This document shows, piece after piece, positions 1,301 through 23,253 of a DNA stretch of 32,009 nucleotides (position 1 is the stretch's first letter; every line of letters starts with the position of its first letter). The notes beneath the pieces were generated by a model. It had not been told where the DNA came from. It saw only the letters and a program-made list of their open reading frames with translations, and did not search any database. A program made the translations under genes and the position numbers. The stretch spans positions 1 to 32,009 of the IMG/VR virus record IMGVR_UViG_3300035698_015177. One strand, given 5' to 3'. Source of the DNA: a virus.

Positions 1301-1484
1301 TTTCGACCTCCTGTCTAAGCTTCTTAGAATTTTTCCTTTTAATTTCTTCAAACATCGAATTAATTTTTTCATCCTCATGAAAAGACGGTCGGCTAGATCT
1401 AGTTTTTTTCGATACATTTCCATGGTCCTTAATTTTAATTGCATGACGTCTACAGTAATCAATATATGATATTACATTACACAT
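1275..1484 (-). CDS. Small basic protein coupled to the helicase gene
   Basis: This 69-residue, strongly charged protein starts MCNVISYIDYCRRHAI and continues with a Lys/Arg/Glu-rich helical tail. The ATG at 1484 is set by a perfect AAGGAGG six bases upstream. The start overlaps the last 8 bases of the helicase gene, and the stop lies inside the VRR-NUC start region, so the three genes look translationally coupled. Small helix-rich proteins sit at this place in other phage replication modules. I do not recognise a named family. A helicase- or nuclease-accessory role is inference from context. Confidence 0.7.
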   Translation of the reverse strand: MCNVISYIDYCRRHAIKIKDHGNVSKKTRSSRPSFHEDEKINSMFEEIKRKNSKKLRQEVENDQNKISD

Positions 1485-2754
1485 ACGATACCTCCTTGAA
1501 TGTCTGGGTAGATGCATCAAACAAACACGGTTTTAAACTTCCTGTAAATCCAGACCTATTTTTTGAAATAGTAATATCTGTTGGAATTGGTTTGCCTGGT
1601 ATCATCTCTAAATCTTTTGGTCGATTTAAAAATATCACAACATCTGCGTCTTGCTCAATATTTCCACTATCTCTCAATGAAGATAATTTTGGCGGTCCAG
1701 AATCCTTTTGAGATTCACGGTTTATCTGACTCAAAGCTAAAACTGGTATTTTCAAATTCTTAGCTAGCATCTTTAGCGATCTTGAGATAATCCCTATTTG
1801 CTCATTTCTAGAATTGTAGTCTTTTCGACGTGAACTTGTTTGTATTAAACCAATATGGTCAATAATCACAAAATCAATATCGTAATTCTTTTTGAAATTA
1901 TAAATCTGATTTGTTATATCTGAGATCTCATAGCAGTCGCAATCAATGTAAATCTTGTAGTCAACAAAATTGCTAGTTCCGAGCTTATCGCCCATTTTAT
2001 CAATTTCCGGCTGATGACCACGGTTTAAACCCTCGAAGTTTAATTGCATATCATGAGACATCATTCGCTTGCCGAGCTCGTCATGTGACATCTCTAACGA
2101 GATAATTCCTACTTTGCGTCCAGCCTTCGCCGATTGAACGGCAATCTGAGTCGATAGAGCCGTCTTACCGACCGAAGTGCCTGCCGCTAGGATAATCAGG
2201 CGCCCTCCGTCCAAAAGTCGCAACACGGCGTCCAGATGAGGAATGTTGGACTTCAGGATATCGGGTAATGATTGAGAACATTTGTCAATAGCCGATAAAG
2301 TCATCTCGGTAATCTCTTGCATGTTCTTTTCTTTTCCTGACTCATTAAATTCAAAGTTTTCAATTTGGTCTTTCAGCTTTAAAAAATCATCACCGAAGTT
2401 TTCAATATCTTCGCCAGAGAATGTCATTACTTGATTTACAAGACAGTTCAACAAACTTCTTCTCTTTGATTTTCTCTTAATCATCCTGGCATAGTGACAT
2501 GCATTTGAAATATTGGCATAACCTTCAGTGATAATCTTGACAAGAGATATATCAGCCCCACAGTCAATCAAAGAAACAGCGTCGTAAGGATATCCATTTT
2601 TGTGCTTTTCAATAATAATTGAAAATAGCTCTCTGCTGTTTTTATCAATGAAATCATCTTCAGATACAAGAGATCCAATCTCATCCATATCAGCACCCAA
2701 TAGGATTGCAGCTAACAAAGATTGCTCTATCACAAAATCATTTTCGTCTTCCAT
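1477..2754 (-). CDS. DnaB-like replicative helicase
   Basis: This 425-residue protein has the full DnaB layout: an N-terminal helical DnaB_N-like domain (about 1..100), a linker, and a RecA-type ATPase. Walker A is GTSVGKT at 192..198. SLEM at 219..222 carries the probable catalytic Glu221. Walker B is DFVIIDH with Asp299. SQINRES around 342..348 gives the sensor Gln and arginine-finger-type residues, and RDSGNIEQDAD follows near 361. It should unwind the fork as a hexamer on the lagging strand. AAGGA precedes the ATG. It lies directly downstream of the O-like initiator, the usual initiator-helicase pair. The length is slightly below bacterial DnaB (about 470). Confidence 0.95.
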   Translation of the reverse strand: MEDENDFVIEQSLLAAILLGADMDEIGSLVSEDDFIDKNSRELFSIIIEKHKNGYPYDAVSLIDCGADISLVKIITEGYANISNACHYARMIKRKSKRRSLLNCLVNQVMTFSGEDIENFGDDFLKLKDQIENFEFNESGKEKNMQEITEMTLSAIDKCSQSLPDILKSNIPHLDAVLRLLDGGRLIILAAGTSVGKTALSTQIAVQSAKAGRKVGIISLEMSHDELGKRMMSHDMQLNFEGLNRGHQPEIDKMGDKLGTSNFVDYKIYIDCDCYEISDITNQIYNFKKNYDIDFVIIDHIGLIQTSSRRKDYNSRNEQIGIISRSLKMLAKNLKIPVLALSQINRESQKDSGPPKLSSLRDSGNIEQDADVVIFLNRPKDLEMIPGKPIPTDITISKNRSGFTGSLKPCLFDASTQTFKEVSYV

Positions 2755-2787: not shown

Positions 2788-3609
2788 TTAATACACAGGC
2801 TCAAGAATCCCCACAAGACTGTGATATCCATTTGTTGCTTTCTTAATTTCTGGGATCTCATCTTCCCATCTCTGATGTTTAAACCATCTGACGACATGAG
2901 GCATAGCAGCAACAAATTCGTCAGTTCTATTTTTCTTATTTATCCATGCAATCTGCTTTTCCAATGCCAGCAAAATCTCATCAGCCTGGTCGTTGCTCTT
3001 GACCAACTTTTTGAACTGGTCCTTGGCCTGTTTTTTTGAGCCTTTGACGCCCGGGTAGATTTCCCAGATTTGGTCAAACTTCGAGCTGTCTATTTTTTCT
3101 TCCTCTTCCTCTTCAAAAACAAAACCGACTTTATTAGTTTTATATTTAGTTTTAATATATAAGAGTGAATCGTCTTGGGCGGACACTTGTGTCCTACTTG
3201 ACCGGACACATATGTCATTTTTTTTGTCGTATGTGTCCGGGAAAGTGTCACATGTGTCCCCCTTATCTGTATAGTTTTCGTCCATCCACTTGTGCAATAA
3301 AAAATCAAACTTATAGGATGATGTCCCCTCATTTTTGCTAGATTCTATCAATTTGAAGGACCTCAATTCGCTAATATAACGTCGTATTTGTCTTTGTGAA
3401 ATTCCACATTCTTTAGCTAATGTGGCTAACTTTGGATAACACTTTCCGTTACTACCACAATGCTGACTCAAACGTGCAAAAATACATTTAGCTCCAAAAG
3501 ATAATTCTGTTCTAATCATCAACCAATTCGGTATAAAGCTACCTGTAAACATTCCGTAAGGGTTATAAAAGTTACCCTCATTTTGACTATTTATTAGACT
3601 ATTATGCAT
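2788..3609 (-). CDS. Lambda O-like replication initiator with winged helix
   Basis: This 273-residue protein has a winged-helix domain of the HTH_36/phage O type at about 26..105 (FGAKCIFARL, then CGISQRQIRRYISEL as recognition helix). A polar low-complexity linker at about 110..175 includes a run of Glu at 166..171. The C-terminal domain begins FDQIWEIYP at 178, followed by GSKKQAKDQFKKL and later VVRWFKHQRWEDE. That C-terminal signature is common in phage initiators that recruit DnaB-type helicases. GGAG lies 6 bases before the ATG. The DNA encoding the linker holds five copies of an octamer next to AT-rich DNA (3094..3259), as in lambda O, where the origin lies within the gene. Confidence 0.85.
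   Translation of the reverse strand: MHNSLINSQNEGNFYNPYGMFTGSFIPNWLMIRTELSFGAKCIFARLSQHCGSNGKCYPKLATLAKECGISQRQIRRYISELRSFKLIESSKNEGTSSYKFDFLLHKWMDENYTDKGDTCDTFPDTYDKKNDICVRSSRTQVSAQDDSLLYIKTKYKTNKVGFVFEEEEEEKIDSSKFDQIWEIYPGVKGSKKQAKDQFKKLVKSNDQADEILLALEKQIAWINKKNRTDEFVAAMPHVVRWFKHQRWEDEIPEIKKATNGYHSLVGILEPVY
3094..3259. other. Candidate replication origin inside the initiator gene (iterons plus AT-rich region)
   Basis: Five copies of GGACACWW or its complement lie within 79 bases: 3181..3188, 3187..3194 (reverse), 3204..3211, 3231..3238 (reverse) and 3252..3259 (reverse), with a degenerate sixth at 3244..3251. The first two form GGACACTTGTGTCC. CCGGACACATA (3202..3212) and TATGTGTCCGG (3230..3240) form an 11-bp inverted repeat. 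The adjoining 3094..3175 is AT-rich, and its Glu-codon run is a pure purine/pyrimidine tract. In lambda, O binds iterons in its own gene next to an AT-rich unwinding element. The same layout here is what I see; origin activity is inferred. Confidence 0.65.
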
Positions 3610-3644: not shown

Positions 3645-3926
3645 TTATTGTGTAAATATTATATAAAGAAGCTCCGTTTTTTCGTAGCTTCGATCAATAT
3701 TTATAAGATTATAATTTTTAAGTTCCTTAAGGTATCGGGATGATTGCTTTTCTCTCAATCCAACCATCCTTGATATTTTAGATAAAGATATGGAACAATC
3801 TTTTTCGTCAGCGCATAATTTCAACAGTACGCCATAAACACATTTTGATCCAAAATAAAGATTTTCTACACATAATAATTCTATAGGAATAGAAATATGT
3901 GAAAAATTTAAAGCGGGTATCGACAT
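3645..3926 (-). CDS. Stand-alone winged-helix protein related to the initiator N-domain
   Basis: This 93-residue protein consists almost wholly of one winged-helix domain. It aligns with residues 26..105 of the neighbouring initiator. Shared features are an IP start, then FGSKCVYGVLLKLC against FGAKCIFARLSQHC, a Ser/Lys-rich turn, VGLREKQSSRYLKEL against CGISQRQIRRYISEL, and LINID against LIESS. It lacks the initiator's linker and helicase-loading C-domain. AAGGAG lies 8 bases before the ATG. It probably binds DNA and could compete at the origin or regulate the operon. It looks like a partial duplication of the initiator; the direction of descent is inference. Confidence 0.75.
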   Translation of the reverse strand: MSIPALNFSHISIPIELLCVENLYFGSKCVYGVLLKLCADEKDCSISLSKISRMVGLREKQSSRYLKELKNYNLINIDRSYEKTELLYIIFTQ

Positions 3927-4242: not shown

Positions 4243-4491
4243 ATGTCTAACGTTAGAAAAATGAACGAAACATCAATGGATGAACTTAAAAAAGCAGTTA
4301 CTTATTTCGGAAGTCGACGACACATGGCAGCAGCTACTAACCTTGAAATATGCAGAGTAAATCAATTTTTTTGTGGGTTTAGACCAATCCCAGCTAAAAC
4401 TGCAGTAGAGCTTGAGTACCTTTCTAAAGGTAAAATTAAATGTAATAAATTATTAAACTTTCTCCTTGACGAAGAATCATTACGAGAGTAG
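4243..4491 (+). CDS. Cro/YdaS-like DNA-binding regulator
   Basis: This is an 82-residue protein. The segment from about 17 to 67 matches the Cro/YdaS pattern: a helix, FGSRRHMAAATNLEICRVNQF as the helix-turn-helix, then FRPIPAKTAVELEYLSKGKI, where the family typically has 'iP...A..iE..t.G.i'. It should bind the palindrome just upstream as a dimer and turn down early transcription. GGAG precedes the ATG by 9 bases; a second Met at 7 is possible. No CI partner is found on the other strand, so this looks like a timing regulator of a lytic phage rather than half of a lysogeny switch. That reading is inference. Confidence 0.75.
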   Translation: MSNVRKMNETSMDELKKAVTYFGSRRHMAAATNLEICRVNQFFCGFRPIPAKTAVELEYLSKGKIKCNKLLNFLLDEESLRE

Positions 4492-5272: not shown

Positions 5273-5650
5273 ATGGAAAACAAAAAATTGCTAGATTTAA
5301 TTATAAGTTTAGTGTCTTCTAAAAATGAAAAACATGGTGCTATTGGTAATTATTCAATAGTTAGAACTTATGCAAGCGGCGTTCATATTGGATTCATAGA
5401 AGACGTACAAAGCAATCAGGGTAGAAGCAGAATAACAATAAAAGATTCGCGAAGGATTTGGTATTGGTATGGTGCATTTACATTGTCAAAAATAGCTAAA
5501 GAAGGTGTGAGACATCCTGAAAAACAAAAATTCAGTTGTATAGTTCCTATTCAATATATTGAAGATGTTATCGAAATAATACCGTTAACTTCAGATGTAA
5601 AGAATAATTTATACTCTGTTCCTACGCATGTCGGCGAATATGAAAGATGA
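5273..5650 (+). CDS. Conserved phage protein resembling DUF6948
   Basis: The 125-residue product has the pattern I associate with a widespread small phage family (DUF6948, from memory): YSIVRTYASGVHIGFIED, a short beta hairpin, DSRRIWYWYGAFTLSKIAKEG, then IVPIQYIEDVIEIIPLTSD near the end. The alternating hydrophobic strands suggest a compact beta-rich fold. Its function is not known to me. GGAG lies 8 bases before the ATG at 5273; the frame upstream to 5195 overlaps the membrane-protein gene and is not needed. Its last bases overlap the start of the glycine-rich gene, so the two are probably translated together. Confidence 0.7.
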   Translation: MENKKLLDLIISLVSSKNEKHGAIGNYSIVRTYASGVHIGFIEDVQSNQGRSRITIKDSRRIWYWYGAFTLSKIAKEGVRHPEKQKFSCIVPIQYIEDVIEIIPLTSDVKNNLYSVPTHVGEYER

Positions 5651-5948
5651 TCTAACACATTGGTTTAATAATGGTTCCGGTGACGGTTACGGGTCCGGTG
5701 ACGGTTACGGGTCCGGTTGCAATTCCGGTGAAGGTTACGGTGAAGATTACGGTTACGGTGACGGTTACGGGTCCGGTGAAGGTTACGGGTCCGGTTGCAA
5801 TTCCGGTGACGGTGAAGGTTACGGTGAAGGTTACGGGTCCGGGTCCGGTGACGATTATGCTTCTAGTTCCGGTTCCGGTGACGGTTACGGTGACTGTTTC
5901 GTTGATGGATTCGGTTCTGGTTACGGTGACGGTGATGGATATGTATAA
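5640..5948 (+). CDS. Glycine-rich low-complexity protein, copy 1
   Basis: The 102-residue product starts MKDDLTHWFNNG. The rest is almost wholly Gly-X dipeptides, with X being Tyr, Asp, Ser, Glu or Cys. Because it is built of two-codon units, loss or gain of 6 bases keeps the frame. I use the ATG at 5640 because it matches the start of copy 2; an ATG at 5628 in frame adds four residues. Neither has a ribosome site, so translation must come from the overlapping upstream gene (stop at 5648..5650). Predicted to be disordered and acidic. Codons (TAC, GAC, TCC, GGG) differ from the AT-rich neighbours. Role unknown. Confidence 0.65.
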   Translation: MKDDLTHWFNNGSGDGYGSGDGYGSGCNSGEGYGEDYGYGDGYGSGEGYGSGCNSGDGEGYGEGYGSGSGDDYASSSGSGDGYGDCFVDGFGSGYGDGDGYV

Positions 5949-6141
5949 TATGAAAGATGATCTAAATAATTGGTTTAATAATGGTTACAGTTACTGTGTC
6001 GTTGACGGTGACGGTGAAGGTGATGGTGAAGGTGACGGTTACGGTGAAGGTTACGGTGAAGGTTACGGGTCCGGGTCCGGTGACGGTTCTGTTTCTAGTT
6101 CCGGTTCCGGTGACGGTTGCGGTGAAGGTTACGGTGATGGA
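5673..6141. repeat. Hexanucleotide-based GG-rich repeat array
   Basis: Two blocks (about 5673..5947 and 6000..6141) are made of six-base units GGTTAC, GGTGAC, GGTGAA, GGGTCC and variants. The plus strand has a G doublet or triplet about every six bases, and GC content is far above the surrounding DNA. A 40-bp non-repetitive segment (5947..5986) separates the blocks. Besides coding for Gly-X proteins, such DNA or RNA could form two-layer G-quadruplexes and is prone to slippage. The complementary-strand and shifted frames are open only because of the repeat. Confidence 0.85.
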
Positions 6142-6144
6142 TAA
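5950..6144 (+). CDS. Glycine-rich low-complexity protein, copy 2
   Basis: The 64-residue product begins MKDDLNNWFNNG, nearly identical to copy 1, and continues with Gly-Asp, Gly-Glu, Gly-Tyr and Gly-Ser units. The ATG is two bases after the stop of copy 1 and has no ribosome site, so reinitiation is likely. It stops just before the AAAAGGA of recT. About 40 bp around the start are shared with copy 1 with three differences, so this is a tandem duplicate. Function unknown. A disordered acidic polymer could act as a spacer, DNA mimic or condensate-forming protein; none of these is shown. Confidence 0.6.
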   Translation: MKDDLNNWFNNGYSYCVVDGDGEGDGEGDGYGEGYGEGYGSGSGDGSVSSSGSGDGCGEGYGDG

Positions 6145-6163
6145 TAACTCAAAAGGAAAAAAA

Positions 6164-6907
6164 ATGACAAAAGAAATATCAAATATACTATCTCCCTCTA
6201 ATTTTGAGGAAGCAGTTAAGTTTAGCGAGATGCTATCTAAAAGCAGCATCATACCGGATTGCTACAAACATAAACCGGGAGACATACTAGTAGCTATGCA
6301 ACTTGGATATGAGCTCGGACTTCAACCTATGCAGGCTTTGACCGGGATAGCTGTAATAAATGGTAAAACTACTGTGTATGGGGATACATTATTAGCAATA
6401 TGCCAATCTCATCCTGAATTTGAATATCTAAAAGAGGAAGATGATGGGGAAACAGCTACATGCACAATCAAGAGAAAGGGTGCGCCGAAACATGTGACTA
6501 CATTTAGTATGGAAGACGCAAAAGTTGCTGGATTATTATCAAGACCCGGACCGTGGAAAAGCTACCCAAAGCGTATGCGTCAAATGAGAGCACGCGGATT
6601 TGCAGCAAGAGATCAATTCGCAGATGCTTTATGTGGCCTTATGCCGGCCGAAGAAGTACAAGATTACAACTTTGTGAACAAAGATACTAGCTTGTACGAA
6701 GACGATGAAAACAAAGACAATTCATTTGATGATAGTCTTGAAAAGCATAGAGTATCTCTGTCATGGGCTCAAGACATGGACCAATTGAAAGGAATCTGGG
6801 GATCTATTCCTTTATTGTATAAATCTTCACTGGAAAAGTTAAAAGATGAAATGAAAGAAAAGATAATAGAGGAGGCAAAAATAAATGAAGCTAGTGATTC
6901 AGAATAA
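6164..6907 (+). CDS. recT: RecT-family single-strand annealing protein
   Basis: This 247-residue protein matches the phage RecT type throughout its first 165 residues. Marks are an N-terminal helix with SEMLSKSSIIPDCYK, GDILVAMQLGYELGLQPMQA, the strand pair IAVINGKTTVYGDTLLA, CTIKRKGAP, FSMEDAKVAGLL, then YPKRMRQMRARGFAARDQF and the end of the core, AEEVQDY. These proteins anneal complementary single strands in recombination and replication restart. The last 80 residues are acidic and variable. AAGGA is 7 bases upstream of the ATG at 6164; the longer open frame upstream is repeat-derived. No adjacent RecE/YqaJ exonuclease is present. The SSB gene is nearby (7195). Confidence 0.9.
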   Translation: MTKEISNILSPSNFEEAVKFSEMLSKSSIIPDCYKHKPGDILVAMQLGYELGLQPMQALTGIAVINGKTTVYGDTLLAICQSHPEFEYLKEEDDGETATCTIKRKGAPKHVTTFSMEDAKVAGLLSRPGPWKSYPKRMRQMRARGFAARDQFADALCGLMPAEEVQDYNFVNKDTSLYEDDENKDNSFDDSLEKHRVSLSWAQDMDQLKGIWGSIPLLYKSSLEKLKDEMKEKIIEEAKINEASDSE

Positions 6908-22461: not shown

Positions 22462-23253
22462 TTATGATGCTGCTCTTAATACTGTGTAATACACTTCAGT
22501 ACTTGCACCTGGATTTGTATTCCAAGTGAATGTAACAGTGTCAGTAGTAGGAACTGCTTTAAGAATATACGATACGTTCGTATATGCTTTAGCCGTAGAA
22601 ACAACTAGATCTGTTGATAATGCACCAGTTACAGTCGCTGCGTCAAATGTACCACCACCACCATAGGAGTGTGTTCCGGCATAAACAACGATGTAAGCAG
22701 GTGTAATACCAGCATCTAAGTTCTCAAGACTTACTGCATCATCTTCAATTTTTGCATTAGTTATTGAATTAGCTGCTAATTTAGCTGTTGTTATTGCATT
22801 AGCTGCTAATTTAACTGTTGTTACTGCAGTATCTGCTAATCCATCTGTTGTTACTGCACCATCTTCAATTTTTGCATTAGTTACTGCATTAGCTGCTAAT
22901 ATATCTGTTGTTACTGCATTAACTGCTAATTTAGCTGTTGTTACTGCATTAGCTGCTAATTTAGGTGTTGTTACAGAACCATCAGCAAGATCAGCACTAT
23001 CAATTACTAATGCTTCAGTTACAGTTACATCAGGATCGATGGCTGTGACAATAACCATGTCACTGCCATCACTACCTAACAAACAAATATAGTCTCCAAT
23101 GTTTGGCAATGGGACCATACTGTTAAAGTATGCTGATGTTTTCATAGTAGCTAAACTGCTTGTCGCATCAACAAAACTATACCAGTTGACGGCATTAGTA
23201 GTTGATTGACCAGCACTTAATCTAGCTAATTTTGATTGTGTAAAAGCTGTCAT
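22462..23253 (-). CDS. Putative head fibre/decoration protein with decapeptide repeats
   Basis: This is a 263-residue protein. Residues 92..181 are nine exact-length ten-residue repeats with consensus NAVTTAKLAA (variants GAVTTDGLAD, NSITNAKIED). The N-terminal 90 residues form an attachment-like domain, and the last 80 residues (GTHSYGGGGTFDAATVTG onward) a compact beta-rich tip. Such repeats build trimeric beta or triple-helical shafts in phage fibres. The position directly after the major capsid gene, within the capsid promoter-terminator cassette, argues for a head fibre made in high amount rather than a tail fibre. GGAG before the ATG. A tail appendage is the alternative. Confidence 0.7.
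   Translation of the reverse strand: MTAFTQSKLARLSAGQSTTNAVNWYSFVDATSSLATMKTSAYFNSMVPLPNIGDYICLLGSDGSDMVIVTAIDPDVTVTEALVIDSADLADGSVTTPKLAANAVTTAKLAVNAVTTDILAANAVTNAKIEDGAVTTDGLADTAVTTVKLAANAITTAKLAANSITNAKIEDDAVSLENLDAGITPAYIVVYAGTHSYGGGGTFDAATVTGALSTDLVVSTAKAYTNVSYILKAVPTTDTVTFTWNTNPGASTEVYYTVLRAAS
22711..22980 (-). repeat. Nine 30-bp repeats coding for a fibre shaft
   Basis: The nine decapeptide units are encoded by tandem 30-bp units (plus-strand theme GTTGTTACTGCATTAGCTGC). DNA conservation between units is high in several places, so unequal recombination could change the shaft length by multiples of ten residues without breaking the frame. Confidence 0.85.

Follow-up and report, generated by a model that had tools for sequence, protein, structure and literature searches.

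Gene organization of the initiator locus

The locus lies on the minus strand of a viral contig of 32,009 nucleotides (IMG/VR record IMGVR_UViG_3300035698_015177), and this whole stretch of DNA is referred to here as the window. The gene at positions 2788-3609 encodes P0001, a protein of 273 aa that was assigned as a replication initiator on the basis of its matches to HTH_36, phrog_270 and phrog_9327 and of the pattern of order and disorder in its AlphaFold2 models. P0001 matched HTH_36 of Pfam (E 1e-9). Its match to phrog_270, annotated as 'replication initiation protein', extends from residue 24 to residue 262 and so takes in both the N-domain and the C-domain (E 3.7e-30), and its residues 174-252 matched phrog_9327 ('primosomal protein'). 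In the full-length AlphaFold2 model, residues 105-175 were disordered and a helical C-domain was weakly predicted. Since this model was too weak for a fold search (pLDDT 44.5), the search was limited to a model of the N-domain alone (residues 25-110; positions 3280-3537, minus strand), which reached a mean pLDDT of 84 and displayed an H-H-H-E-E wing arrangement, as predicted for a winged-helix DNA-binding domain. Its Foldseek neighbors were CodY/MarR-type wHTH structures in PDB and, in BFVD, numerous helix-turn-helix proteins and replication proteins of phages, among them a putative replication protein O. The C-domain appears to be helical and DnaT-like, and we infer that it recruits a helicase.

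Lambda O and P22 gp18 both match the Pfam family Phage_rep_O (PF04492) at about 1e-35 or better, whereas P0001 gave no match to this family up to E 0.1. BLASTP of P0001 against lambda O and against P22 gp18 detected no significant similarity, and a sequence search of PDB found no relative of either P0001 or lambda O. Judged by these sequence comparisons, P0001 belongs with phrog_270/HTH_36 and stands outside the Phage_rep_O family, in which it differs from the initiators of both lambda and P22.

The next gene downstream (1477-2754, minus strand) encodes P0003, a DnaB-type replicative helicase of 425 aa, which matched DnaB_C (E 8e-59) and DnaB (E 1e-9) of Pfam as well as phrog_19 (E 4e-75), and which shares 26% identity with P22 gp12. 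The next gene upstream (3645-3926, minus strand) encodes P0002, a 93-aa protein that is similar to the winged-helix domain of P0001 (31% identity across 72 aa, E 7e-12) and was taken as its stand-alone paralogue. Divergent from this replication operon, at 4243-4491 on the plus strand, lies a gene for a Cro/YdaS-like regulator (YdaS_toxin, E 6e-9; P22_Cro, E 6e-4), which suggests a control region of the temperate type.

An octamer cluster in the linker-coding region resolves into four iterons

The original prediction held that five copies of the octamer GGACACWW fall in both orientations within 79 bases of the linker-coding part of the gene. An exact count bore this out, locating the five copies at 3181-3188 (+), 3187-3194 (-), 3204-3211 (+), 3231-3238 (-) and 3252-3259 (-), all inside 3181-3259. 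Over the whole window, with both strands counted, the octamer occurs eight times where 3.0 copies would be expected by chance, and the remaining three are dispersed (10848, 13719 and 26100). The cluster thus stood up to the genome-wide count that had been set beforehand as a check, with five copies inside it and three elsewhere.

The prediction had also treated each octamer as one iteron unit. The cluster itself was upheld and the number of units was revised, because the octamers are themselves half-sites, belonging to four imperfect palindromes of about 14 bp that follow a GGACACNNGTGTCC-like consensus. In the order of the gene, these are iteron 1 (GGACACATGTGACA; 3246-3259, minus strand; gene nt 351-364), iteron 2 (GGACACATACGACA; 3225-3238, minus strand; gene nt 372-385), iteron 3 (GGACACATATGTCA; 3204-3217, plus strand; gene nt 393-406) and iteron 4 (GGACACTTGTGTCC; 3181-3194; gene nt 416-429). 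Both half-sites of iteron 4 are perfect, and this iteron alone contains two of the five octamers; iteron 2 has a single good half-site. When all positions of the contig were ranked by their mismatches to the GGACACNNGTGTCC consensus, three of the four iterons were the top matches, while the iteron at 3225 combined one perfect half with a poor second half. The start-to-start distances are 21, 21 and 23 bp, or about two helical turns, and the four sites together occupy codons 117-143, within the part of the gene that encodes the disordered linker.

A repetitive stretch of this kind could be a functionless cluster, produced by chance or by a DTxDT-rich linker peptide whose codons happen to spell GGACAC. 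Iterons 1 and 2 indeed share a reading frame (GDTCDTFPDTY), and the repetition is to that extent a matter of the peptide. To this explanation we opposed 20,000 synonymous recodings of the initiator gene, in which the protein was kept and the codon usage was that of the phage itself. None of them contained five octamers, and the maximum of three was reached only once; the cluster was therefore imposed on the DNA and is no by-product of the protein sequence. Furthermore, the copies lie in both orientations and in different frames, and their spacing is that of the iterons of lambda and P22. A functionless origin of the cluster is accordingly scarcely credible.

An AT-rich tract lies directly 3' of the iterons

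In a nearest-neighbor stability scan, no 40-bp segment of the gene was less stable than that at 3131-3170, which ranked among the lowest 0.1% of the whole contig. This AT-rich tract starts at gene nt 440, directly 3' of the iterons, and is a probable DNA unwinding element. Its minimum is only mildly unusual for a gene encoding this protein, since 7.5% of the synonymous recodings were as weak. Beyond it, the coding strand carries a purine tract of 22 nt (GAAGAGGAAGAGGAAGAAAAAA; 3093-3114, minus strand). The AT-rich, purine-tract segment that had been predicted beside the octamers was thus recovered as a stability minimum and a purine run. GC skew did not change at 3.2 kb. Its flip near 4.2-4.5 kb follows the orientation of the genes, and because the skew tracks the gene strand, it was set aside as evidence on the origin.

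The layout coincides almost exactly with that of the lambda and P22 origins

To compare the locus with well-known intragenic origins, the lambda iterons were taken from the annotation, and the P22 rep_origin is annotated at gene 18 nt 353-497. The four iterons start at gene nt 351, 372, 393 and 416 here, at 349, 369, 393 and 416 in lambda O, and at 352, 372, 396 and 419 in P22 gene 18. The AT-rich 40-mer starts at gene nt 440 here (the least stable one), at 436 in lambda and at 435 in P22 (the most AT-rich one in each). As in P22, four mid-gene iterons at nearly equal positions and spacing are followed directly 3' by an AT-rich tract, and an O-like initiator gene precedes a DnaB-type helicase gene (the 18-12 order). 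The lambda origin in gene O likewise consists of four imperfect inverted-repeat iterons at nearly equal gene coordinates and shares the purine-run asymmetry, with a purine run present in the lambda AT-rich tract as well. Apart from the initiator family described above, the differences concern the iteron sequence, which is unrelated both to that of lambda and to the TTTACC-n-GGTAAA of P22, and the supply of the helicase. Lambda uses its P protein as a loader together with the host DnaB, whereas the phage here encodes its own DnaB. Both motif and arrangement had been expected to depart from lambda; this was right for the motif and wrong for the arrangement.

This comparison also bears on a reading of the inverted repeats as RNA structure in the initiator mRNA that would serve translation or attenuation control. 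The transcript of this stretch folds at -42.3 kcal/mol, with a z of -7.4 against shuffles. The equivalent stretches of the two origins known to act at the DNA level, however, fold equally well (z -7.2 in lambda and -5.8 in P22), and the fold was therefore rejected as an independent signal and regarded as a by-product of the inverted repeats. No terminator-like site was found in the region, and control through RNA structure is very improbable.

The palindromes might instead be operators through which P0001, P0002 or another wHTH protein autoregulates the early leftward operon, with no origin involved. Palindromes are typical of the sites of wHTH dimers, and the stand-alone wHTH paralogue P0002 is encoded directly upstream. 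On the other side, the sites lie about 350 bp into the gene, where a promoter scan gave no strong match, and the region upstream of the operon, the expected place for operators, is free of octamers. Four phased sites at 21-23 bp with a flanking AT-rich tract, moreover, constitute the lambda/P22 origin layout. We consider a purely regulatory function of the palindromes improbable.

A model for initiation within the gene of P0001

Altogether, the segment at 3131-3259 is very probably a theta-replication origin of the phage, situated inside its own initiator gene, that is bound by P0001, opened at the AT-rich tract and supplied with the phage helicase. The lambda-style origin foreseen by the original prediction is in this way supported by the winged-helix N-domain, the linker iterons, the AT-rich tract 3' of them and the adjacent helicase gene. 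What the sequence itself shows are the iterons and the intervals between them, the AT-rich tract, how the domains of P0001 are arranged and the order of the genes. By analogy with lambda, P22 and their relatives, dimers of the P0001 winged-helix N-domain would bind the four imperfect palindromes spaced by two turns and wrap the iteron DNA, the wrapping would open the AT-rich tract at 3131-3170, and the C-domain of P0001 would then place the phage's own DnaB-type helicase, P0003, on the opened strand.

We also considered whether P0002 recognizes the iterons of P0001 as well, as a competitor or a helper of the full-length protein, which appears unlikely. If it does, binding of P0002 to the iterons would imply control of copy number or timing at the level of the origin by a truncated initiator. 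A short truncated-initiator gene upstream was not a recurring feature of the helicase loci, among which none was found, and a weak match occurred only in Vibrio phage 1.042.

A probable origin of a known kind with a private recognition motif

Lambda, P22 and phage L each carry a private iteron motif in the initiator gene, and phage L parallels P22 in having its own iterons in gene 18 and a DnaB-type gp12 (PMC8022706). Stx phages likewise carry private iterons within the initiator gene, and at the lambda/Stx ori, O dimers bind the iterons and the AT-rich tract is unwound (PMC7466680). At oriL of SPP1, located in gene 38, the origin-binding protein binds to direct repeats that lie within the gene encoding it, next to an AT-rich unwinding element; by description, SPP1 resembles the present phage in encoding a DnaB-type helicase and differs from it in relying on gp39 as a distinct loader and in having another origin, oriR, far from the first (PMC6316719). 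For Francisella phage KIRK, private iterons in the initiator gene have been proposed (PMC7924643). Because private initiator-gene iterons have already been described in lambda, P22, L, Stx phages and SPP1 oriL and proposed in KIRK, the probable origin described here is of a known kind. Its design is not new, and the recognition sequence is the phage's own. The suggestion of a new iteron type was hence abandoned, as private motifs are normal for such origins, those of lambda, P22 and L included (PMC8022706). The intragenic layout of lambda and P22 now extends to an initiator of another sequence family, HTH_36/phrog_270.

Distant relatives and the frequency of linker iterons

No close relative of P0001 was found in viral contigs or genome contigs, and no close relative of the phage emerged from blastn against phages, from a terminase-based search of viral contigs, or from a scan of viral contigs for a direct pair of the iterons. 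The distant relatives were the rep proteins of lactococcal P335/BK5-T phages, similar in both domains, and a protein of Vibrio phage 1.042, similar in the N-domain. The distant alignment provided no block usable for further searching.

The BK5-T-type rep resembles P0001 (about 26% identity) in its membership of phrog_270 (1e-62 for BK5-T rep), its HTH_36 N-domain and its YP-KKGK/WED C-domain, and its gene likewise carries linker iterons with an AT-rich tract directly 3'. In BK5-T, the linker part of rep contains an annotated repeat_region, with 12-mer matches at 275, 298, 320 and 343. The iterons differ from those described here, being of the GGGGTAT type or the TTTACA type, and, unlike at the present locus, the annotations of the BK5-T and 28201 regions place no DnaB helicase next to rep. 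Analysis of 41 lactococcal loci revealed four classes of recognition helix, each with one iteron type, and an AT-rich stretch directly 3' of the iterons was nearly invariant. The one-to-one correspondence of helix class and iteron type, which was observed in the lactococcal relatives only, is consistent with recognition of the iterons by the N-domain, although it may reflect shared ancestry or block exchange instead of independent covariation. In Lactococcus phage D6890, the C-domain of rep is present a second time just downstream of rep (L088:2998-3540; phmmer E 4e-11 to P0001).

The replication gene of Vibrio phage 1.042.O also encodes an HTH_36 initiator and carries three imperfect-palindrome linker repeats spaced by 21-26 bp, and a short wHTH-like ORF weakly similar to P0002 precedes it (L085:2157-2432). 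It differs in the repeat sequence (TGTGACAnACAGTCCA), in a C-domain that is not detectably related to that of P0001, and in having no adjacent DnaB annotated.

Initiator candidates beside distant DnaB homologues were then surveyed for linker repeats, with the criterion of at least four copies and a score above a codon-shuffle null. Such repeats were present in 21 of 59 candidates, which is an upper count because some matches are 12-bp codon repeats and not iterons, and in 20 of these 21 they were centered mid-gene. Among the controls, none of the 59 helicase genes and 7 of the 133 other ORFs qualified. The locus fits a broader trend, with phage initiators encoded beside DnaB helicases often having private linker iterons. 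Initiator specificity and its site would therefore move together as one exchangeable cassette, and linker iterons could serve as a simple marker for locating the origins of uncultured phages.

Other repeats on the contig

Two adjacent arrays on the plus strand, at 5673-5948 and 6003-6140, consist of 6-bp GGTKAC/GGTGAA units with periods of 12, 18, 30 and 48. They sit in the ORFs at 5628-5948 and 5671-6144 and in the 5' end of that at 5981-6907 (RecT-like), and a near-identical text, 'aatatgaaagatgatcta...ttggtttaataatgg', precedes each array. In addition, the ORF at 22462-23253, near a tail-protein gene, contains about seven 30-bp repeats (GTTACTGCATTAGCTGCTAATTTAGCTGTT) at 22731-22983 on the minus strand.
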